Assembly (NCBI GenBank): GCA_937982115.1
Contig: CALJNE010000010.1
Coordinates: 1-64,000 of the forward strand
Direction: 5' to 3'
DNA: 64,000 bases
Source of the DNA: an uncultured Bacteroidales bacterium
GTDB lineage: Bacteria; Bacteroidota; Bacteroidia; Bacteroidales; ML635J-15
Part shown: piece after piece, positions 30,637 to 51,881 of the stretch
Layout: the number at the start of each line of letters is the position of its first letter
Position numbering within the stretch: position 1 is the stretch's first letter
The notes under the pieces: generated by a model
What the model saw: the letters and a program-made list of their open reading frames with translations, nothing else
Told to the model about the DNA's origin: nothing
Database searches by the model: none
Translations under genes and position numbers: made by a program

Positions 30637-32019
30637 TTAAAAATAATCTTCCCGTTCCTTATTCGATTTAAAAAGATACCTCAAACTGTCATAAAATATA
30701 TCAAAAGCCTGAGAGGGATGTTCAAAAAATAATCTTAATAAATTTAAAAATCTACCCGGATTTGTAAAATAAAAATTTCTTAGAAAATATGTTTCATGTT
30801 TTTTCAAATTGAGATAATAATCTTTTTTCCATCTCCATCGAAATTCCGGATAATTTTGAACTTCGATATGTTGTTCATTTTTTCTGAAAATTTCTGTTCC
30901 GGGATAAGGAATTATATAAGACAATGAAGCAAAACTTACAGGCATAGTACGTAAAAAACTCAATGTACTTTTAATATCTGTAAATTTTTCTGTTAAAGGA
31001 TTAAAAAGCATGAAAAAGCTAATTTCAACTTTATTCTTCCGCAGTTTTTTCAGTAATAATTTTGTCTTTTCTAAATCAATGTTAAATATTTTGTTATATT
31101 CTCTTCCCGAATTTTCGTTTATGGTTTCGAGTCCAATCATAATATGCTTAAAATTCAGTTCTATCAATATATCCACAATCTCTTCGTCAAGCAAATCAAT
31201 TCGAGTTAATCCATAATAGTTAAATTTCAATCCATTTTCCGATTGAAATTTTAAAACATCTTTCAGGAGCGATTTTTTGAGAGTACAATTATCGTCAAGC
31301 AATCTTATATTTTTTATTCCATTTTCAGCAAAATATTTAATTTCTTGCAAAATATTTTCAGTTTTTCTAAAACGAACTTTGTGCTGGTTGTATGTTTTTA
31401 TACAAAAACTACAGGAATAAGGACATCCAAAAGACCAATAAGTAAACCCTGATTTTCCTTTTGAAAAAAGTTCTTTGTATCTATAATTTTTAATAAATTT
31501 CAAATTATAATGAACTATCAAATCAGGATTATGTTCCGTTTCTTTTAATTTTTCATTTTGTATTATTTCGATAAAATCAGTTTTCTGTTGAGTTTTCCTT
31601 ATACCCAATGAATTATAAACAATTGTTTCAAAATTACCATCCAGAACAGCTCCATACTTTGAAAAATCATCCGGATATAAAGAAGGGATATAACCAATAA
31701 TTACTAAGGGATTTTTTGCAAATAGTTTTAATTTTTCAATAAATTTCAATTCAGAAGAAATAAAATCAACCGAAGTCATGGTGAAAACATAATCAGGTTG
31801 AATATTTTTTATCTTTTCAATACATGTATCTTCGTCATGATTTTCGGCAACAGCATCATAAAAAATCACCTCATCACCGGGAATCACGTTTTCTTCAATA
31901 ATTGTTGACAGCCGAACCAATTCCACCGGAGGATATAAGAATCCTCTTGCAAAATAAGAACAAGAGTATTTTCTTATTATTTTGCTTTGATAAGGTAAAT
32001 TAAGTACTAAAAATTTCAT
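30637..32019 (-). CDS. B12-binding-domain radical SAM protein (last gene of the amidation/carbamoylation operon)
   Basis: 460 residues. An N-terminal B12-binding-type Rossmann domain (about 1-135, with FLYPPVELVRLSTIIEE and PDYVFTMTSVDF) precedes a radical SAM core with CPYSCSFC near residue 203 for the 4Fe-4S cluster and an IRLLDDNCTL strand. The C-terminal ~80 residues are helical and basic. The cobalamin lower-axial DxHxxG motif is not visible, so the B12 may bind base-on or not at all; this is common in the BchE/HpnJ-like branch. The start overlaps the carbamoyltransferase stop as ATGA. No substrate is known; the operon suggests a tailoring step on a carbamoylated or amidated product. Confidence 0.88.
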   Translation of the reverse strand: MKFLVLNLPYQSKIIRKYSCSYFARGFLYPPVELVRLSTIIEENVIPGDEVIFYDAVAENHDEDTCIEKIKNIQPDYVFTMTSVDFISSELKFIEKLKLFAKNPLVIIGYIPSLYPDDFSKYGAVLDGNFETIVYNSLGIRKTQQKTDFIEIIQNEKLKETEHNPDLIVHYNLKFIKNYRYKELFSKGKSGFTYWSFGCPYSCSFCIKTYNQHKVRFRKTENILQEIKYFAENGIKNIRLLDDNCTLKKSLLKDVLKFQSENGLKFNYYGLTRIDLLDEEIVDILIELNFKHIMIGLETINENSGREYNKIFNIDLEKTKLLLKKLRKNKVEISFFMLFNPLTEKFTDIKSTLSFLRTMPVSFASLSYIIPYPGTEIFRKNEQHIEVQNYPEFRWRWKKDYYLNLKKHETYFLRNFYFTNPGRFLNLLRLFFEHPSQAFDIFYDSLRYLFKSNKEREDYF

Positions 32020-33638
32020 TTTTCAATCAGAAAATTTCCAATAACAAGAGCCTCAAGCCCACTACGGTAGAATGTAGCAACAGCATCGGACGGACTAAAA
32101 ACTATAGGTTCGTTATTTGTGTTAAAACTTGTATTTACAACAACGGGATGGCCGGTTTTTTCTTTTAGTTTACATAATAGCGAGTGATACAAAGGCTGAA
32201 GTTCCTTATTGACAGTTTGTATTCGTGCTGTGCCGTCGGCATGAACAATTCCGGGAGTAAATTCCTTAGCTTTTGGAGTGGTATCGAAGGTAATATTCAT
32301 AAAAGGAGCTTTTGCAGCTTTTCCGATAAAGTATTCTTTACTATCCTCTTCTGTTACTGAAGGGCAAAACGGACGGAAAGGTTCACGAAATTTTATCTTT
32401 TTGTTTATAATATTCTTAACGTCGGGCATAGCAGGATTTGCAAGGATGCTACGTGCTCCCAGTGCTCTGGGACCAAATTCAATTCGTCCTTGAAACCATC
32501 CTATCACTTTATTCCGTGCAATGAGTTCGGCAGCAACTTCGGCCGGGTCTTCAATATATTTATACTTAATTAAGTTTTCGTCGAGAATAGATTTAATTTG
32601 TTCGTTGGTAAAATCCGGTCCTAACAAAGCTGTTTCGATAGGTTCGGGAAGATAACCTTTTTGTGCCGAAGCATACATTGCTGCACCTAAAGAAATTCCG
32701 GTATCTCCGGCAGCAGGTTGAACATAAATCTCATCAATGAAATCAAGATTCATAATTTTTTGATTGACAAGGCAATTCAATGCCACTCCACCTGCCAGGC
32801 AAATTTTTCTCAGGCCTGTGCGTTTATGAAAGTCTTCAACCATCGCCAGAATTACCTTCTCGAATTGATACTGTGCAGAAGCAGCAATATCGTAGTATTT
32901 CTGCGTAATTTCTTCGTTACGTAAGCGAGCTTTGCCGAGTATTTCCGTAAGTTTCTCGCTGTAGGCTTTTTCCTGACGAGTAGGTTGCGGTTCTCCCGGC
33001 TTAATCGGTTTTAAAAATTCTTCGTTAAAGAATAATTGACTGTTTCTATAATCGAGAATGTTGCTGAAATCATAAGCATGTTTATTGCCATAAGCAGCCA
33101 TTCCCATAAGTTTGTATTCATCGCTATCGCGTCTGAATCCGCAAAATTGCGTAATTATAGAATAAAATATTCCTAGAGAGTTCGGGCGACTAAATCTTTC
33201 GATAACTTCTATTTTACCGTTTTTACCTGTACATATCTGGGTTGAAACACCGTCTCCCGAAGCATCCATAGTAATAATTAAAGCCTCATCAAACCCGCTT
33301 CCGTAGTACGCGCTTGCAGCATGAGCTGTATGATGATGAACAAAAAACAACTCTGGACAATATCCAAAATTATCGGTAAAATATGACCGAAGGATATTTT
33401 CAAAAACTGTTCCCCATGTACTGCCATGGCAAGCAACTAAATCAACATCCCTAATCGTTAATCCCGAATATTCAAGACATTTATAAACAGATAATTCTGA
33501 TAACTGTCCGGGAGAAAATTTTATCCTGTTCAATCGTTCTTCTTCAATTGCAACAAGCAATTTTCCATCCTTTAGCATTGCTGCCGAAACATCTTGATAG
33601 CCAAGACGTACTCCTCCGTTAATCCCTAATACTATCAT
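32016..33638 (-). CDS. Carbamoyltransferase, NodU/CmcH family
   Basis: A 540-residue enzyme that transfers a carbamoyl group from carbamoyl phosphate (through carbamoyl-adenylate) to a hydroxyl of a sugar, antibiotic or lipid. The N-terminal Kae1-like domain shows MIVLGINGG, the metal-binding HHHTAHAASAYYGSGF near residue 100 and ITMDASGDGVST. The C-domain has IEFGPRALGARSILANP near 390 and a late HPVVVNTSFNTNNEPIV, both standard. It starts one base inside the preceding amidotransferase stop (TAATG) and its stop overlaps the radical SAM start. The operon suggests that one molecule is both amidated and carbamoylated. Confidence 0.95.
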   Translation of the reverse strand: MIVLGINGGVRLGYQDVSAAMLKDGKLLVAIEEERLNRIKFSPGQLSELSVYKCLEYSGLTIRDVDLVACHGSTWGTVFENILRSYFTDNFGYCPELFFVHHHTAHAASAYYGSGFDEALIITMDASGDGVSTQICTGKNGKIEVIERFSRPNSLGIFYSIITQFCGFRRDSDEYKLMGMAAYGNKHAYDFSNILDYRNSQLFFNEEFLKPIKPGEPQPTRQEKAYSEKLTEILGKARLRNEEITQKYYDIAASAQYQFEKVILAMVEDFHKRTGLRKICLAGGVALNCLVNQKIMNLDFIDEIYVQPAAGDTGISLGAAMYASAQKGYLPEPIETALLGPDFTNEQIKSILDENLIKYKYIEDPAEVAAELIARNKVIGWFQGRIEFGPRALGARSILANPAMPDVKNIINKKIKFREPFRPFCPSVTEEDSKEYFIGKAAKAPFMNITFDTTPKAKEFTPGIVHADGTARIQTVNKELQPLYHSLLCKLKEKTGHPVVVNTSFNTNNEPIVFSPSDAVATFYRSGLEALVIGNFLIEK

Positions 33639-34837
33639 TATTTGCCAACATTAAAATATTTATCATAAGTTATTTTTGGTATCAAATTTAATTTTGAAAA
33701 AACATAAATAGGAAATTTGAATAATCTTATAAGATTATAAATTGTTTCATAATCTCTAAAAGTTTTTGGAGGATATGACATGTATTCATCAAATTGTTCT
33801 CTTGTAAGCCCCAGTCGTTTAATACATAAATCAATTACTTTAGGGTCTTCAATTGCATAAATGCCATGAGCTCTTTCAAGTGCTGTTTCACGTTGCATCT
33901 GACCTGAACGAACAAGTGCGGAATCGCTGTTCATATTCATATCAATATTGAATTTTACTCTGTGAACATACTTAATCAAACTATGATACAAATCATCATA
34001 ATAATGAGCTCCGGGATAAACCCAATCTAATTCTTTCTGTATTAACTCAGTTGCTGCAGCTCTGTTGTAATCCCAGTAATACATTGGAGTAATTGTACGA
34101 ATTCCTTTCACCAATGAATAATACAACAATTCCTTAACTCCAAAGTTAAAGCCGGGATCTTCGGGTTTCCATTTTCGTAAGGGAGTTTTGCCAAATTTTT
34201 TATGAACTGTTTTCAGATAACGTCCATCGAAAAATGACCACGAAAGAGGTTTAATTCCTTCGGTACGAAAAGATTGACCTATTAAAATATATTTAAGATT
34301 TTCTTTACATGCTACTCCGTATAATGATGAAGCAATTCCGATATCTGTTCCCATATTTAGGTCAGGCACCGAGGCTTTGAGAAAATCAATTTTTAATTCC
34401 TTAGCTTCTCGCCAGTCGCTTGTAATGGTACGCAGCTCCACCCCAAGCTTGCGAGTTGCCTTAATCATATTTTCTCCTGCCACAGGATTATCAAAGCCAT
34501 CATTAAAATGAACAGCAAGCGGACGTAAGCCAAACTCTTTTACAGTTAAATACAATAAATATGTGCTATCTCTGCCACCACTAATTCCAACAACACAATC
34601 GTACTTTTTAGCCCGTCCGGATTTTTTTATTTTTTCAATGTATTTATTGAGTATTTTACGTCCTGCTTCTCCATTTGGAAATATTTTCTCAAGTTTATCG
34701 TGTATATGACAAAAGCTGCAAACTCCGTCTTTGTCGAATTTTATGCCCGGTACTGTGGAATCCTGAACACAACGATTACATACCTGATATTTAATATTTG
34801 TTGGCTTACCGTTAACAATCACTAAGCTTTTATTCAT
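33638..34837 (-). CDS. PP-loop N-acetyl sugar amidotransferase (WbpG/PseA-like)
   Basis: A 399-residue PP-loop ATP-pyrophosphatase of the N-acetyl sugar amidotransferase family. Members convert a sugar acetamido or carboxyl group to an acetamidino or amide using ammonia. A zinc-ribbon-like start (CNRCVQDSTVPGI...CSFCH) leads into the PP-loop GISGGRDSTYLLYL near residue 85. LIGQSFRTEGIKPLSW and ITPMYYWDYNRA follow, and the tail has a RETALERAHGIYAIEDP segment. These enzymes usually have HisH/HisF-like partners to supply ammonia; none is present here. Instead a nitrilase-fold hydrolase with an intact catalytic triad lies 5 nt upstream. Confidence 0.92.
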   Translation of the reverse strand: MNKSLVIVNGKPTNIKYQVCNRCVQDSTVPGIKFDKDGVCSFCHIHDKLEKIFPNGEAGRKILNKYIEKIKKSGRAKKYDCVVGISGGRDSTYLLYLTVKEFGLRPLAVHFNDGFDNPVAGENMIKATRKLGVELRTITSDWREAKELKIDFLKASVPDLNMGTDIGIASSLYGVACKENLKYILIGQSFRTEGIKPLSWSFFDGRYLKTVHKKFGKTPLRKWKPEDPGFNFGVKELLYYSLVKGIRTITPMYYWDYNRAAATELIQKELDWVYPGAHYYDDLYHSLIKYVHRVKFNIDMNMNSDSALVRSGQMQRETALERAHGIYAIEDPKVIDLCIKRLGLTREQFDEYMSYPPKTFRDYETIYNLIRLFKFPIYVFSKLNLIPKITYDKYFNVGK

Positions 34838-34842
34838 AAATA

Positions 34843-35682
34843 CTAAATTTTAGAAAAATAATCCACTCCTCGGCTATTTAAATAATCGGAAATTTGTGTT
34901 CCTTTCAATTTATTTTGAGGCACAATAGTTTCAAAAACAACTAATTCTCCTGCAAATTCATTAAAATGACCTTCTTTAATAATTCCATCTCTATTAACAG
35001 CAAGAGAGCATCCTACCATTTTTTTGCCTTCATAAGGTCCGCCAACAATATAGCCAACAGATGTTGTACTTACCACAAGCATATCAAACAGCGAAGCTAA
35101 TGAATGCAGCGGCTTTTTCCATTTATCCTTATACGGGTCCATTTCCTCGGTTATACAATAGTCCACTGTCCATGATGAAGGTGATAACAAAATATTGGTG
35201 CCCATTCTTCCCAATGTATGACCGATGGACAAAGCTCCGGAATAATTATCGGCACAAATATTTACTCCGATTTTCCCAAACTCTGTATCAACAACCTCCA
35301 ACTTAGTACCAACTTCATAAAAAGTATGCTCTACTTCGAGCAAATTTATTTTGGAATATTTGAGTATTATCTCACCATATTTATTAATAAGTATAGCAGT
35401 ATTATAAATTTTTTCGTTTCTACGTTCACTTAATCCGACGCATATATATATATTATGTTGTTTTGCAAGTTCGACAAATATATCACTAAATTTTCCGGGT
35501 ATTGGTTGAGCCTCGTTGTAAACAGAGGGATGTGTCCATGCAAAATCAATAGTTTCCGGCAACAAAACCAAATCACAATTTTGTTGAGCAGCTTCAACAA
35601 CAAGTTTTTCGGCCCTATTGAAATTTCTTTCAGGTTCACCTCCCTCTACAAGTAATTGAGCCATTCCAATTTTTATTTTCAT
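34843..35682 (-). CDS. Carbon-nitrogen hydrolase (nitrilase superfamily), candidate ammonia supplier
   Basis: 279 residues of the nitrilase superfamily with the Glu-Lys-Cys triad intact: LVLLPET (Glu near 43), KYSKINLLE (Lys near 112) and VNICADN (Cys near 147). Members hydrolyse amides or nitriles and release ammonia. It is the first gene of the operon, followed after 5 nt by the PP-loop amidotransferase. In glutamine-dependent NAD synthetase a nitrilase-type domain feeds ammonia to a PP-loop domain, so the same pairing may occur here as separate proteins; that is inference. The ATG at 35682 is preferred over the ORF-track start, and a TAAATTTG box lies at 35706-35713. Confidence 0.9.
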   Translation of the reverse strand: MKIKIGMAQLLVEGGEPERNFNRAEKLVVEAAQQNCDLVLLPETIDFAWTHPSVYNEAQPIPGKFSDIFVELAKQHNIYICVGLSERRNEKIYNTAILINKYGEIILKYSKINLLEVEHTFYEVGTKLEVVDTEFGKIGVNICADNYSGALSIGHTLGRMGTNILLSPSSWTVDYCITEEMDPYKDKWKKPLHSLASLFDMLVVSTTSVGYIVGGPYEGKKMVGCSLAVNRDGIIKEGHFNEFAGELVVFETIVPQNKLKGTQISDYLNSRGVDYFSKI

Positions 35683-35705: not shown

Positions 35706-35713
35706 CAAATTTA
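35706..35713 (-). promoter_or_regulatory. -7 box (TAAATTTG) for the nitrilase-amidotransferase-carbamoyltransferase-radical SAM operon
   Basis: On the minus strand the octamer matches TAnnTTTG and lies 23 nt upstream of the nitrilase ATG. With overlapping genes downstream it probably drives the whole four-gene unit. Confidence 0.5.
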
Positions 35714-44709: not shown

Positions 44710-44742
44710 ATTTTTTTGTATTTTTACAATAAATTTTTGAGG

Positions 44743-46155
44743 ATGCAAGATAATTCTTGTTTGCTGATAGTTCCGTATTTTATTTCCGGTAAAGGAAGTA
44801 TATTAAATTCCTTTTCCTATTCCATGCCTCCCGTTGGTCTTCTTTCAATTGCGGGATACTTACGTGAGAATGGGATAAAAACAAACATTCTGGATTTAAC
44901 GATACAATCAAAACTTAAACATTCGAACTTAGAATCTTTTTTAATAAAAAAGATAAAAGATTTTGGATTTCCTCAATGGGTTGGAATATCGGTTTGTACA
45001 CCTGTGGCATACAATGCATATAAAATTGCAGAAATAATAAAATCGAACTTTCCTGAAATAAATATCGTTTTAGGAGGTCCACACATAACTGTTCTACGAA
45101 GAAGAATTTTTGATGAATGTCAAAATGCCGATTTTTTAATTACCGGAGAAGGCGAATATGCACTTTGCGAACTAATTAAAAATAATGATTTAAGTCCGGA
45201 TAATTTAATTGAAAAAAATCCTGTTCCAAATATTATAAAAATTCCTGCTAGGGAAATTGAAATTTCAAAATTACCAATGCCTGCATACGATTTATTGGAA
45301 TTTGAGAAATATGTTCCACCTCCTGCTTCTCTTAACAGCAAACGTCCGGCAATTGGCATTATTACTTCCAGAGGATGCCCCTACAAATGTACATTTTGTG
45401 CAAGAATCACAGGACACAAGTTAAGATTTAAAACAATTGACCAAATAATTGATGAAATAAAATATTTAAAGGAAAAATTTAAAATAAAACAATTCCATTT
45501 TTATGACGACACAATAACATGCAACAAAAATTTCATTAAAACCTTATGCAACAGGTTCATTGATGAAAATTTAAATCTACATTGGAGTTGTTTTGCAAGA
45601 GTTGATACCGTTGACGAAGAAATCTTAGGCTTGATGAAAAAAGCCGGATGTTTTGTTATTATGTATGGAGCAGAAAGTCTCGATGAAAGGATTTTATTAG
45701 ATGTAAAAAAAGGTATAACTGTCGAACAAATTCAGAAAGCACTAATATTAACCAGAAAGTCCGGAATCGAATCCCGCATTTCTCTAATTATTGGAACGCC
45801 AACCGAAACAAGAGAAAGTTTAGAAAAAACCGGCAAAGAACTTTTAAAACTTGACACTGATTTTTTTCAGGTCTTTATTGCAGTTCCAATGCCAGGGTCT
45901 CAGTTTTACGTTGAAGCAAAAAACGAAGGAAGAGTTATTAACGAAAACTGGGCAGATTACAACCTAAGCAAAGTTCTTTATAAACATAAAATCTTTACTG
46001 AAAAAGAGTTATTTGCCATCCAAAGAAAACTGTATCTTAAATTTTACTTAAGACCAAAAATTATTTTTAACACTATTAGAAGTATTAATTCCTGGAACGC
46101 TATAAAGAATGCTTTGAGAGGGCTTAAGGGATTTGTAAAAATCGTTTCTTCATGA
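44743..46155 (+). CDS. B12-binding-domain radical SAM protein, trio member 1
   Basis: 470 residues. The ATG at 44743 is chosen over the ORF-track TTG, which adds nine poor residues. A B12-binding-type domain (about 20-150: SYSMPPVGLLSIAGYLRENG...VLGGPHITVLRR) precedes a radical SAM core with ITSRGCPYKCTFCARITG near 205 (CxxxCxxC). The C-terminal ~60 residues contain YLKFYLRPKIIFNTIRSINS, repeated in the next gene. No clear DxHxxG cobalamin motif is seen. It overlaps the next gene by 4 nt. Related BchE-like enzymes perform methylation, cyclisation or carbon-skeleton chemistry; here the substrate is unknown. Confidence 0.9.
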   Translation: MQDNSCLLIVPYFISGKGSILNSFSYSMPPVGLLSIAGYLRENGIKTNILDLTIQSKLKHSNLESFLIKKIKDFGFPQWVGISVCTPVAYNAYKIAEIIKSNFPEINIVLGGPHITVLRRRIFDECQNADFLITGEGEYALCELIKNNDLSPDNLIEKNPVPNIIKIPAREIEISKLPMPAYDLLEFEKYVPPPASLNSKRPAIGIITSRGCPYKCTFCARITGHKLRFKTIDQIIDEIKYLKEKFKIKQFHFYDDTITCNKNFIKTLCNRFIDENLNLHWSCFARVDTVDEEILGLMKKAGCFVIMYGAESLDERILLDVKKGITVEQIQKALILTRKSGIESRISLIIGTPTETRESLEKTGKELLKLDTDFFQVFIAVPMPGSQFYVEAKNEGRVINENWADYNLSKVLYKHKIFTEKELFAIQRKLYLKFYLRPKIIFNTIRSINSWNAIKNALRGLKGFVKIVSS

Positions 46156-47597
46156 ACTCTGATACTCTAAAATATGATATAATATTTATTATTCCAAGAT
46201 ATCAACCGACGCAAGGGTTTATTTGGAAGGCTATAGAATACAGATTTCACAGTCCGGGAGTGCTTTCTCTTGCAGGATTTATAAATTATCACGGCTACAA
46301 AACCGCCATATTTGATTGTAATCTTGAACAAATACCGGAAGAATATTTCGAATTAGAATTTGAAAAAAGATTTGGCAACATAGAGGCATTATTTTTCGGA
46401 TTTTCTTGTGCCACTCAAACAGTTAATTCTGCCTACCGAATATCTGAAAAAATAAAGAAAAAATTTCCGCATTCTAAAATTGTCTTTGGAGGAGCCCATC
46501 CAACTGCTCTGCCCGAAGACGTTTTAAAACACAGTCATATTGATTATGTTGTAGTTGGTGAAGGAGAAATTACTTTGTTAAAATTGTTGCAAAGTCCTAA
46601 TCCAACTGAAATTAATGGACTTGCATACAGAAAAGGCGATAATATTTTCATCAATCCACACGGAGAGAGAATAAAAAACTTAGATTCGCTCCCATTGCCC
46701 GATTACAGCATTATTCCCATTCATAAAAGCAAGCCCCTCATCGGGACATACAAAAAGCTTCCTGCAACAATAATGGTAACTGCGAGAGGTTGTCCGGGCA
46801 GATGTACTTTTTGCAGTAGAGTAACAGGAAACTATTTAAGCGTTATGTCTCCGGAAAGAATGCTTGAAGAAGTGAAGATTTTGCATAATAATTACGGGTT
46901 TAATCAAATTATTTTTTACGATGACACTTTTATTTCGGATAAAAATCGTATCGAAAAATTCTGTGATTTAATAATTGAAAATAAAATAAATATCAGTTGG
47001 ACGTGTTCTTCTCGGGTTGACAGAGTTTATCCCGAATTGCTAAAAAAAATGAAAAAAGCGGGATGTTATCAAATAATGTTCGGAATTGAAAGTTTCAATG
47101 AAGATGTACTTAAAAATATAAATAAAAAGACTAAAACTGAAGATATTTTTTATGCTATCAGAGAAACAAAAAAAGCTGGCATAGAAGCCAGAGCTGCCAT
47201 TATGTTGGGTAATCCAGGCGATACTGAGGAAATTTTAAATGAAAACATAAAATTATTGAAAAAACTAAATCCCGACATGATTCAAGTTACTATTACTACT
47301 GCCATACCGGGATCTCAAATGTTTAGAGATGCTCACATTAATGGAAAAATATTAACATACGATTGGGATAAATATGAAGGTAATTACCAGATTGTTGAGC
47401 ACGAAACTTTGGATTTTAAAACATTACAGAAATATTACAGAAAAACGTATTTAAAATTCTATTTAAGACCTTCATTTATCATAAAGTCAATTTTAAGAAT
47501 AAATTCATTAACGAAAATAAAAGTCCTGATTATTGGGTTTTTTTCTATTTTTCCGATTATTTTCAAAAATATTTTTTCGGTGAACAGCAAAAAGTGA
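46152..47597 (+). CDS. B12-binding-domain radical SAM protein, trio member 2
   Basis: 481 residues and clearly paralogous to its neighbours. The first ~150 residues hold the B12-type domain (HSPGVLSLAGFINYHG...KIVFGGAHPTALPEDVL). The cluster motif is VTARGCPGRCTFCSRVTG near 213. KKAGCYQIMFGIESFNEDVLKNINKKTK and TAIPGSQMFRDA are the same landmarks as in members 1 and 3. Coupling is by ATGA at the start and GTGA at the end, so the three are translated as a unit. Specificity cannot be read from sequence. Confidence 0.9.
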   Translation: MNSDTLKYDIIFIIPRYQPTQGFIWKAIEYRFHSPGVLSLAGFINYHGYKTAIFDCNLEQIPEEYFELEFEKRFGNIEALFFGFSCATQTVNSAYRISEKIKKKFPHSKIVFGGAHPTALPEDVLKHSHIDYVVVGEGEITLLKLLQSPNPTEINGLAYRKGDNIFINPHGERIKNLDSLPLPDYSIIPIHKSKPLIGTYKKLPATIMVTARGCPGRCTFCSRVTGNYLSVMSPERMLEEVKILHNNYGFNQIIFYDDTFISDKNRIEKFCDLIIENKINISWTCSSRVDRVYPELLKKMKKAGCYQIMFGIESFNEDVLKNINKKTKTEDIFYAIRETKKAGIEARAAIMLGNPGDTEEILNENIKLLKKLNPDMIQVTITTAIPGSQMFRDAHINGKILTYDWDKYEGNYQIVEHETLDFKTLQKYYRKTYLKFYLRPSFIIKSILRINSLTKIKVLIIGFFSIFPIIFKNIFSVNSKK

Positions 47598-49075
47598 AAG
47601 ATAGTATATCTTGCATATTATTTAGTCCCCATTTCGAATACGTAAAGGGTAGTATTTACAGAGAGGTGAGCAATTTGGACCCTCCTATCGGATTAATTTG
47701 TTTGTCGGCATACTTAAACGAAAGAAATTTAAAGACTCTTGTTTATGACCTTAATGTTGAAATAAAGTCAAATACAGAAATCAATAACTTTCTTTCGGAA
47801 TTAAAATTAAAATATGAACTTTCAAAAACAATTTTTGGGATATCATTTCTAACTCCTTATGCCTATGCGTCATATAAAATTGCCGAAGAACTTCGTAAAC
47901 TATTCCCGAATAATTTAATAACAGCAGGAGGAGCACACGCAACGTTTATGGCAGATGAAGTTCTTAACTCTAAGCTTGTTGACGTTGTTGTTCATGGAGA
48001 AGGTGAACTAACTATATTTGAAATTACTTCCGGAAAAAGTCTTAATGAAATTGATGGTATTAGTTACATAAAAGAAGGCCAAATTATTAAAAATCCGGAA
48101 AGAGAAAGAATCAAAGATCTTGATAGCCTACCCATACCTGAATACAGACAATTAAAAATGAATAAATACAAGCCTATTTTAGGCTCGTATCGCAAATTGC
48201 CAGCAGCAAACATCATTACAAGCAGAGGCTGTCCCGGACAATGCAATTTTTGTTGTAAAACTTTCGGTCAAAAGGTCAGCTACAAATCTGTTGATAAAAT
48301 CATTGAAGAAATAAAGTTTTTAAAATCAAACTATAAAATTAAACACATCAATATTTACGACGACACCTTCACTTTAAAAAAGCAAAGAGTAATAGATTTT
48401 TGTGAAAGGCTTATAGCTGAAACCCTCGATCTTGAATGGACATGCTTCGCAAGGATAGACACGATGGATGAAGAAATTCTAAAAAAAATGAAAAAGGCCG
48501 GATGTTATCAGATTATGTATGGTGTTGAAAATTTTAACCAAGAAATTCTTGACAATTTAGCAAAAGGGATAAAAGTAGAAAAAATTGAAGAGGTTATTTC
48601 AGCAACGAGAAAAGCCGGAATTGTGACGCGAGTTTCGGTTATGGTCGGAAATACAATAGATACCTGGGACACATATAAAAACAACATTAAAGCATTAAAG
48701 AAATTAAAACCCGACATTATTGTATCAAGTATTTTCACTCCTATACCGGGAAGCAAATTGTATGAATGGGCAAAACAAAATAATCGCCTGCTAACAACCG
48801 ACTGGAACAAATTCGCAGGTAACAATTCAGTCATGAAATTAGACTTTCTCAGCCAGGAAGATGTAATTAAACAATACCGCAAAATTTATTCTGATTATTA
48901 TTACAATTTACCATACTTCATAAGAAGAATTAAACGCATAAATAACTTTACAGAATTTACACACACGGTTAAAGCTTTCTTTTATGTTTTAAAGTTTATT
49001 CTTGTTAGTGCGTTTTATCCCTTGTATGTAAAAATAAAACTTAATAAATCTGAGAAGAAGATCAAAAAATCTTGA
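47594..49075 (+). CDS. B12-binding-domain radical SAM protein, trio member 3
   Basis: 493 residues starting at GTG inside the previous stop. The B12-type domain has LDPPIGLICLSAYLNERN and TAGGAHATFMADEVL; the cluster loop is ITSRGCPGQCNFCCKTFG near 215, with an extra Cys. KKAGCYQIMYGVENFNQEILDNL and FTPIPGSKLYEWAK follow. The C-terminal ~40 residues are basic and helical. The last 87 nt overlap the convergent gene that ends at 48989, so both proteins' C-terminal tails are encoded on opposite strands of the same DNA. Confidence 0.9.
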   Translation: MKDSISCILFSPHFEYVKGSIYREVSNLDPPIGLICLSAYLNERNLKTLVYDLNVEIKSNTEINNFLSELKLKYELSKTIFGISFLTPYAYASYKIAEELRKLFPNNLITAGGAHATFMADEVLNSKLVDVVVHGEGELTIFEITSGKSLNEIDGISYIKEGQIIKNPERERIKDLDSLPIPEYRQLKMNKYKPILGSYRKLPAANIITSRGCPGQCNFCCKTFGQKVSYKSVDKIIEEIKFLKSNYKIKHINIYDDTFTLKKQRVIDFCERLIAETLDLEWTCFARIDTMDEEILKKMKKAGCYQIMYGVENFNQEILDNLAKGIKVEKIEEVISATRKAGIVTRVSVMVGNTIDTWDTYKNNIKALKKLKPDIIVSSIFTPIPGSKLYEWAKQNNRLLTTDWNKFAGNNSVMKLDFLSQEDVIKQYRKIYSDYYYNLPYFIRRIKRINNFTEFTHTVKAFFYVLKFILVSAFYPLYVKIKLNKSEKKIKKS

Positions 49076-50353
49076 AGGTTTTGAATAATAAATAAAAAAA
49101 GATATTCTTTTTATGAATGTTGTAAAAAATTTACTTGTTTTTTTTGAAAAATAATATGGCAATCCGTTTTCTTGTCTCATATATTTATACCATACATCAA
49201 CAGAAAGTTTATCTTCTTTAACAGCCAAATGAAAAACCGGAGTGGAGGGTAAGGCAATCATATTATAAAACTGTGCATAATCGGAATTCAGTTTCAATGC
49301 GAAACGAAGAGTTTTGAACATTTCTTTGGGTTTTTCATCAATATTTCCGTATATATAAGAACAAAGAACTCTTATTTTATTATTTCTTAATTCGCGAATT
49401 GCCTTTAAATATAAATCATTGGGTATATATTTATTAATACTTTTTCTAACATCTTCATCTCCGGCTTCCACACCAATAATAACATAATCAAGTCCGGATT
49501 TTTTCATAATTTGAATAAGTTCTTTATCTAGAAGTTCGGCACGAGTCATGCACGTCCATTTAAACTTAAAATCTTCTTCCAAAAACCAATTACACAAATA
49601 AATAACACGTTCTCGATTATATGTGAAAGAATCATCAACAAAAGTCAACCACTCTAAATTATAGTTTTCAACCAGATATTTTATTTGTCTTTTGACACTT
49701 TCTATTGGATATTCTTTATATCTGTTTTTACCAGGATCTTTGCAAAATTTACAATTATAAGCACAACCTCGTGAGGTAATAACGGTAAACCAACTTCTAC
49801 CGTAAGAAATGTTCTGATATTTTGCAATATCATATAACTCATAATTAGGGTGAATATCAAAATCAGAAATATCAAAAAATGCCGGACTGTCGATTCTTCC
49901 GGTTGATTTTATTACAATACCTGAAATATCTTCAAATCTATTATCTCCATTTTTGAGACGTTCTATAAATTCTGGAAAACTTTTCTCGCTGTATCCAAGA
50001 AAACCATAATCAATATCCATTTCAAAAATCACATTAGGATCATTGGTAACATGTGGTCCGCCTGCTACTATAACTTGATCAGGATATCTAGCTTTTATTG
50101 TTTTTGTGATTTTATAAAAAAAAGGTAAGGATATTGACATTATTGAGTAAGCAACAACCATTGGTTTAAATTCATCAATTTCTTGCAATAAATCTACTAT
50201 ATTGGTATTTATGTCCGCATCAAATAATCTCGAACTTATATTCTTACGCTTCAATAATTCCGAAAGATATCCTACTCCCAAAAATGGATAAATTGAAAAC
50301 TGGACTAAACCTGTTTTAGAAGATGTAACAAATAAAACATCTATAGATTTCAT
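48989..50353 (-). CDS. B12-binding-domain radical SAM protein, minus-strand pair member 2
   Basis: 454 residues from the ATG at 50353, 4 nt after the upstream gene's stop; a GTG at 50374 is possible. N-terminal B12-type domain (FSIYPFLGVGYLSELLKRKN...VIVAGGPHVTNDPNVIF), cluster motif ITSRGCAYNCKFCKDPGK near 192, then FVDDSFTYNRERVIYLCNW and MKKSGLDYVIIGVEAGDEDVRKSI. It differs from the plus-strand trio in the substrate loop after the cluster. It shares a transcript with the gene before it. Function unknown. Confidence 0.88.
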   Translation of the reverse strand: MKSIDVLFVTSSKTGLVQFSIYPFLGVGYLSELLKRKNISSRLFDADINTNIVDLLQEIDEFKPMVVAYSIMSISLPFFYKITKTIKARYPDQVIVAGGPHVTNDPNVIFEMDIDYGFLGYSEKSFPEFIERLKNGDNRFEDISGIVIKSTGRIDSPAFFDISDFDIHPNYELYDIAKYQNISYGRSWFTVITSRGCAYNCKFCKDPGKNRYKEYPIESVKRQIKYLVENYNLEWLTFVDDSFTYNRERVIYLCNWFLEEDFKFKWTCMTRAELLDKELIQIMKKSGLDYVIIGVEAGDEDVRKSINKYIPNDLYLKAIRELRNNKIRVLCSYIYGNIDEKPKEMFKTLRFALKLNSDYAQFYNMIALPSTPVFHLAVKEDKLSVDVWYKYMRQENGLPYYFSKKTSKFFTTFIKRISFFIYYSKPSRFFDLLLRFIKFYFYIQGIKRTNKNKL

Positions 50354-50357
50354 ATTT

Positions 50358-51881
50358 TCATTTGAAAAACTCACGAAAAACCTTTAAAATTTCTTTAATT
50401 CTGACACCATCTCTTTTAAAAACACTTAAAAACATTATAACAAACTTAATAAAAATATCTATTCCGAGAATAATAATTGCAGGTATCTTTTTTACTTTTG
50501 AAAAAAAACTGTCTCCGGTACTTAAAATTAAATCTCCCCAAGCTTTTTGAGAAAAAATTTTCTTTATTTGTCTGAATCTGAAATAATATTTAAAGTAGGA
50601 AAAAAGAATATCATTTCGTATTTGATATTCTGATGTGTTTTCAGGAAGTAGAGGAAAATTCGGTTTTTTATAAAATGGCCTTACCAATACTTCCTGAGAA
50701 TTAAAATTCGAATAATATTTCTTTACTGTGATTTTATCTTTATTTTGGTTATATAAAACTGTCCCGGGATAAGGTACAACATTATTAAATTTCACTAAAT
50801 CCAGGTCGTGCTTTATCGAAAACTCAACACAATTTATTCTAATCTCTCTTGATTCGTCAGGAAAACAAAATATAAAATTAGCCATTACCTTGAATCCTAT
50901 TTCCTTCAATTTACGGATTGCAAGAGATATTTCATCTGGCATTTCTGTTTTGCCGATATTTTTTAATATTTCCGGTGATACTGTCTCTATTCCCAAGAAT
51001 ACTGTGTTAAAGCCTGTATTAAACATTAACTTTAGAACATCTTCATTCATATCTCTAACACGTGCCTGAAAGGAATAAGTAACATCTTTTAATATTTTTG
51101 ACTTACCAATAGCTTCACATAATTCAATTATTCTTTTTTTATTTGCTAATAAATTATCATCAAAAAACGCAATATGTTTTTGTTTTAGATCTTTGACTAA
51201 AAATTCTAATTCTTTTACAGTATTCTCTGTATTTTTATAACGATACCTGCGTTTGCCGACAAAATTCACACAGCAAAATGTACAATTATATGGACAACCC
51301 CTCGAACTTATAATATGAGAAAAATTATACTGTGAAAATGGAATAAAAATATCATAAGGAAATTCAGGTAAAAGATTTATATCATTTACAACCTCATCTG
51401 CCGGATTTATTACAACTTGAAAATCTTTTCGATAGGCAATTCCCGGAATATCCTCAATATGATTACCTGATTTTAATTTATTATAAATATTTACTATCTG
51501 TAATTCGCCTTCTCCGATAAAAACATAATCACATGCTTCTATCTCATTCAAAACTTCTTCCGCTACAGCAGTTGGATGTATTCCACCGAGTATAATAATA
51601 CAATCCGGATAAAGTTTTTTTAATTTATAAGAAAGTTTAACAGCTTCTGAGTAAGCCTCTGTGAGAGTAGAAATACAAAATATATATGGTTTTGAATGAT
51701 TATTAACTATTTCAGAAATCTTTGGTAAAACATTTTTATAAATTTGTTGATCAACAAAAGATGCATTAATATCATTTTCTCGCAATACGGAAATTAAACT
51801 TCCAATGCCATAAGGAATACTTATTGGAAATAAAGGTTTAAAAAGCCCTGTCGAATTTGTAGATGTATTTATAAAAATCAT
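50358..51881 (-). CDS. B12-binding-domain radical SAM protein, minus-strand pair member 1
   Basis: 507 residues. N-terminal B12-type domain (LFPISIPYGIGSLISVLREN...IILGGIHPTAVAEEVL), then the cluster loop IISSRGCPYNCTFCCVNFVG near 193. AFFDDNLLANKKRIIELCEAI and FNTVFLGIETVSPEILKNIG match the radical SAM barrel strands. The C-terminal 130 residues are basic with a hydrophobic stretch (IPAIIILGIDIFIKFVIMFL) that could touch the membrane. Transcription probably starts from a TAAATTTG box inside the palindrome at 51913-51943. Confidence 0.88.
   Translation of the reverse strand: MIFINTSTNSTGLFKPLFPISIPYGIGSLISVLRENDINASFVDQQIYKNVLPKISEIVNNHSKPYIFCISTLTEAYSEAVKLSYKLKKLYPDCIIILGGIHPTAVAEEVLNEIEACDYVFIGEGELQIVNIYNKLKSGNHIEDIPGIAYRKDFQVVINPADEVVNDINLLPEFPYDIFIPFSQYNFSHIISSRGCPYNCTFCCVNFVGKRRYRYKNTENTVKELEFLVKDLKQKHIAFFDDNLLANKKRIIELCEAIGKSKILKDVTYSFQARVRDMNEDVLKLMFNTGFNTVFLGIETVSPEILKNIGKTEMPDEISLAIRKLKEIGFKVMANFIFCFPDESREIRINCVEFSIKHDLDLVKFNNVVPYPGTVLYNQNKDKITVKKYYSNFNSQEVLVRPFYKKPNFPLLPENTSEYQIRNDILFSYFKYYFRFRQIKKIFSQKAWGDLILSTGDSFFSKVKKIPAIIILGIDIFIKFVIMFLSVFKRDGVRIKEILKVFREFFK

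Follow-up and report, generated by a model that had tools for sequence, protein, structure and literature searches.

The 64,000-nucleotide stretch of an uncultured Bacteroidales genome analysed here (the window) contains a WbuX/WbpG-type PP-loop N-acetyl sugar amidotransferase without HisH or HisF partners, raising the question of where this enzyme obtains its ammonia. The amidotransferase (AT; 33638..34837, minus strand, 399 aa, TIGR03573) is the second gene in the minus-strand order NIT, AT, CT, where NIT (34843..35682, minus strand, 279 aa) encodes a nitrilase-superfamily protein and CT (32016..33638, minus strand, PF16861/PF02543) a NodU/TobZ-like carbamoyltransferase; the gaps are 5 nt between NIT and AT and −1 nt, a 1-nt overlap, between AT and CT. 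NIT starts at an ATG at 35682 and stops at 34843, the mechanical ORF beginning at a GTG at 35706, and its catalytic triad comprises E42, K110 and C142, numbered from the second codon as in the family alignment. An operon neighbour encoding a radical SAM protein (30637..32019, minus strand, PF04055) overlaps CT, and five more radical SAM genes related to it lie in a run at 44716-51881 of the window. An earlier note on this DNA had described a nitrilase-superfamily gene with an intact Glu-Lys-Cys triad 5 nt upstream of an AT lacking HisH/HisF partners, and both observations were borne out, the first by the coordinates, the PF00795 match and the triad residues, and the second by the lack of any HisH or HisF profile match in the window.

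AT is a clear member of its family, scoring 224 bits with the TIGR03573 WbuX profile (cut-off 203.2) and carrying the PP-loop GISGGRDS and the tetracysteine CNRC/CSFC. According to the LpNASAT structure paper (PMC10607449), the hallmarks of the family are a PP-loop of the form SGGxDS and a CxxC/CxxC motif. Both are retained among the ATs of the NIT-linked clade, the PP-loop being invariant in the 88-89 that could be aligned and the CxxC...CxxC zinc motif present in 87/87.

NIT matches PF00795 at 118 bits, and a fold search (Foldseek) also paired it with nitrilases, its matches being N-carbamoylputrescine amidohydrolase, Nit2 and Pyrococcus amidases. The Pyrococcus amidases are among its closest homologues by fold and its closest solved homologues by sequence, and one entry, 6ypa, has glutaramide, a glutamine-like amide, bound. 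Across the family the Glu, Lys, Cys triad is invariant (90/90 members) and a second Glu near the Lys is retained in 83/90. The earlier note would have given up its proposal had NIT belonged to a nitrilase family of known unrelated substrate; this was not borne out, NIT falling below every curated nitrilase equivalog cut-off (archaeal nitrilase, AguB, formamidase, Nit1/2, Lnt), with a best score of 89.6 bits versus 500. NIT is also not orthologous to the NadE G-domain (PRK13981, 49 bits versus a cut-off of 479). Aligned with NadE of the sampled genomes, it lacks the YRE loop and carries C-A-D where NadE glutaminases carry C-E-D, the roles of these residues being taken from PMC6946656. These differences rule out a NadE-type G-domain and indicate that any glutamine would be bound differently, so that glutamine binding is not readable from the NIT sequence.

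A first pass with a two-row NIT profile against 395 genomes of the class gave 13 tight members (E <= 2.4e-72) followed by a gap to 4e-42, and AT was found on the fetched stretch for all of these except L077, in which NIT occurs without AT on its contig stretch. A 12-row NIT alignment was scanned against 85,462 species genomes, and 80 loci, selected on NIT alone, were kept; these were named as Bacteroidetes (many Hymenobacter), Omnitrophota, Acidobacteria, Deltaproteobacteria, Nitrospinae and Verrucomicrobia, six phyla in all. AT was present in 80/80 loci and adjoined NIT in 79/80, the gene order being NIT-AT in 69 and AT-NIT in 11, and HisH/HisF was found in 0/80 within the stretch fetched. 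Because all 80 NIT loci have AT, the NIT-AT association is real and well beyond chance. NIT and AT distances also correlate (Mantel r 0.59, 0/2000 permutations), which fits co-inheritance or, equally, a shared locus history. One AT of the NIT clade (L366:5798-7066, minus strand) has no NIT nearby and adjoins a class II-fused AT, and its contig also carries a NIT-AT locus 40 kb off.

These data bear on whether HisH and HisF could act in trans, with the nitrilase an unrelated hitch-hiker, an explanation that we regard as scarcely credible. Although some NIT genomes do contain HisH/HisF, the window genome (2.69 Mb, 90.65% complete) gave only sub-cut-off cross-matches to TIGR01855 and TIGR00735, at about 29 bits or less and belonging to other glutaminases and barrels; HisH/HisF-like genes elsewhere in this genome, which the earlier note had named as evidence against its proposal, are thus missing. 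Four other genomes with the NIT-AT pair, G468, G471 and G607 (97-99% complete) and G526 (70%), likewise had no HisH/HisF over the cut-off. The genome searches and the 80/80 linkage, spanning six phyla and two gene orders, largely rule out action in trans. G607 has two more ATs without NIT or HisH, however, and HisH absence alone is therefore no proof of a role for NIT.

The survey of adjacent nitrilase versus hisH/hisF genes proposed in the earlier note was run on 133 ATs from Bacteroidota and Omnitrophota, drawn without regard to NIT, with loci spanning about 6 kb on each side, although some contigs end sooner. HisH/HisF accompanied 94 of these ATs, NIT nine and a fused class II glutaminase six, while 24 had none. 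The respective counts were 50, 2, 4 and 11 in Bacteroidota (n=67), where the two NIT cases include the window locus itself, and 44, 7, 2 and 13 in Omnitrophota (n=66), a sample comprising most, not all, AT matches above the cut-off. The identity of the HisH/HisF clusters was checked with NCBIfam (TIGR01855; WbuZ, TIGR03572; AglZ/HisF2, NF038364). NIT and HisH/HisF never occurred at the same AT (Fisher p=8e-6), and the two neutral samples together with the NIT-only scan gave the consistent NIT adjacency in the absence of hisH/hisF that the note had anticipated.

This mutual exclusion is left unexplained if NIT instead performs a tailoring step of its own in the same glycan pathway, acting on the sugar as an amidase, a deacylase or an Lnt-like N-acyltransferase, and AT takes free ammonia. 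Such a role, which we consider unlikely, draws on the fact that the nitrilase superfamily includes acyltransferases and many amidases, on the missing NadE-type glutamine residues in NIT and on the ATs without a donor gene. For about 18% of the sampled ATs no donor could be recognised nearby, and some may therefore use free ammonia. A tailoring role also leaves unexplained why no gene other than AT and NIT is shared by all 34 dereplicated loci, where the sugar genes vary, and it does not account for genomes with both systems. In at least three genomes, all Bacteroidota (G319, G332 and G375), one AT has HisH and/or HisF as its neighbour and a second AT has NIT, the two ATs being about 10 kb apart on one contig in G319, and only the NIT-clade AT is without HisH/HisF. 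WbuX-family genes without a recognisable donor within about 6 kb were seen at L165, L169, L174, L178, L276, L288, L376, L391 and L392, the AT of L288 lying near an AsnB-like gene.

Phylogenetic analysis placed the change of donor gene in a single clade. Among the 104 ATs of one tree, the 34 linked to NIT group together in a single clade (SH-aLRT 100), which was recovered at 100/100 and in 100% of bootstrap trees in a careful 79-row tree with long branches removed. Because HisH/HisF-linked ATs sit both in sister groups of the NIT clade and in a distant group, the simplest history, on an unrooted AT tree, would be HisH/HisF first, followed by one replacement by NIT; the immediate sister of the clade, L056:5188, is weakly placed (83/44). 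A third ammonia source is represented by ATs of about 600-680 aa in which a class II (Ntn) glutaminase is fused N-terminal to the WbuX-type domain (L041:5112-7148, L042:5365-7179, L043:5108-7138, L044:5110-7128, L300 and L301), and these form a separate single clade. With a class II glutaminase fused to the AT in another clade of the family, the slot that NIT occupies appears to be a glutaminase slot, and it is mainly because this slot elsewhere holds either a class I glutaminase with its conduit or a class II enzyme that we read NIT as a donor rather than as a tailoring enzyme.

We therefore consider it likely that NIT and AT constitute a two-gene, two-component amidotransferase in which NIT would make ammonia, most likely from glutamine, for AT, and the best reading of NIT is as a stand-alone nitrilase-type glutaminase. 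In the proposed mechanism, NIT would hydrolyse the side-chain amide of the donor, most likely glutamine, through Cys142-Glu42-Lys110, releasing ammonia that would be handed over to AT, presumably within a NIT-AT complex. AT would bind ATP at its SGGRDS PP-loop and activate the N-acetyl carbonyl of a nucleotide- or lipid-linked sugar as an adenylate, from which ammonia would displace AMP to give an acetamidino (amidine) sugar. The earlier suggestion that the nitrilase replaces HisH as ammonia source is supported by the linkage and exclusion survey but appears too narrow, as NIT would stand in for HisH and also for the HisF-type conduit (WbuZ/AglZ) of the remaining family.

A true ammonia-donor system using an amide other than glutamine, such as asparagine, a dipeptide amide, formamide or another small amide, seems distinctly improbable. 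In its favour, the nitrilase structures nearest to NIT belong to amidases and carbamoylases that act on varied substrates, and NIT lacks the NadE glutamine signature; the class I and class II donors filling the same slot elsewhere in the AT family are, however, glutamine-specific. For the predicted two-component glutaminase system, tethered AlphaFold models were built from natural neighbours lying in frame, NIT-AT and AT-NIT, with the intergenic stop read as a residue. Both gave confident domains with undefined relative placement and no confident docking (pTM 0.63 and 0.64), and neither yielded an ammonia tunnel. In a Foldseek search both domains of the first model (NIT-AT) aligned, in matching order, with those of glutamine-dependent NAD synthetases at an rmsd of 20-25 A, the modelled arrangement being undefined.

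The neighbours of NIT-AT in the 34 dereplicated loci include a GT2 resembling ArnC/PgfS (22), a DegT-type aminotransferase (16), an SDR (15), an EamA/ArnE-F-like small membrane protein (15), a Gfo/Idh oxidoreductase resembling UDP-GlcNAc 3-dehydrogenase (13) and a hexapeptide acetyltransferase (12). Acting in concert, the dehydrogenase, aminotransferase and acetyltransferase would yield a sugar with a 3-acetamido group, which is of the kind that WbpG amidinates, and we infer an amidine (acetamidino) sugar as the product of these loci; the window locus is without most of these genes. CT is an accessory to NIT-AT, found in about a third of the loci (11/34 dereplicated loci; 27/79 ATs of the scan), and the radical SAM protein encoded at 30637-32019, whose family occurs at 3/34, is outside the conserved pair. 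Pairing of an AT with a carbamoyltransferase recurs at L037 and L046. At L037:8989-12171, on contig C81 of the window genome, a second, diverged WbuX-like gene adjoins another NodU-type carbamoyltransferase with neither HisH/HisF nor NIT at the locus, and L046 has the same composition. A further PP-loop region, WbuX/QueC-like, is embedded in an NRPS module (condensation, AMP-binding, PP-binding) at L040:5522-9541 (minus strand), where amidine formation might take place on a carrier-bound peptide.

It seems reasonably probable that three unrelated ammonia donors have served a single family of PP-loop sugar amidotransferases, namely the class I enzyme HisH with its HisF conduit, a class II Ntn domain fused to the amidotransferase, and a protein of nitrilase fold that took over from both donor and conduit once and then spread over at least six phyla. 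If so, nitrilase-type ammonia donors extend beyond NAD synthetase, a function can be given to a large group of nitrilases without a known substrate, and one can test why a single clade manages without the HisF conduit that most of the AT family needs. In Hymenobacter, other Bacteroidota and Omnitrophota, NIT-AT would also point to the gene clusters from which positively charged amidino sugars are likely to arise.

The proposed system resembles several known ones, each in part. The WbpG-HisH2-HisF2, WbuX-WbuY-WbuZ and PseA-type systems share with it the AT family, the PP-loop, the zinc tetracysteine and a dedicated donor gene adjoining AT, but their donor is a class I, HisH-like glutaminase with a HisF-like conduit, whereas both are missing from NIT-AT and a nitrilase-fold protein is in their place. 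The class II glutaminase-WbuX fusions (L041-L044, L300) also combine the AT family with a non-HisH donor; however, theirs is an Ntn-type glutaminase fused at the N-terminus in an AsnB-like layout, in a separate clade. LpNASAT (PDB 8WEX), the only solved AT relative found by sequence, has the same conserved PP-loop and Zn site, but its description (PMC10607449) leaves the ammonia source aside. In the literature searched, which covered few subscription papers, no match linked a nitrilase with sugar amidination, and an earlier report is possible. In fused NAD+ synthetase (NadE/QNS1) the PP-loop ligase receives its ammonia from a nitrilase-type domain, as proposed here, but within a single polypeptide and through a known tunnel. 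The closest precedent is the two-subunit NAD synthetase of Thermus thermophilus (type C NADS, TTC1538-TTC1539), in which a separate nitrilase-fold G-subunit is encoded in one operon beside a PP-loop S-subunit and proven biochemically (PMC3376133), much as NIT is accompanied by its PP-loop ligase gene in 80/80 loci. The view in the earlier note that a two-gene version would be new thus does not hold for the nitrilase/PP-loop pair in itself. The Thermus enzyme makes NAD and has as its G-subunit an orthologue of the glutaminase domain of NadE, whereas NIT has no YRE loop or C-E-D and is partnered by a sugar enzyme; the proposed pairing for sugar amidination is a variant on a known nitrilase/PP-loop arrangement.
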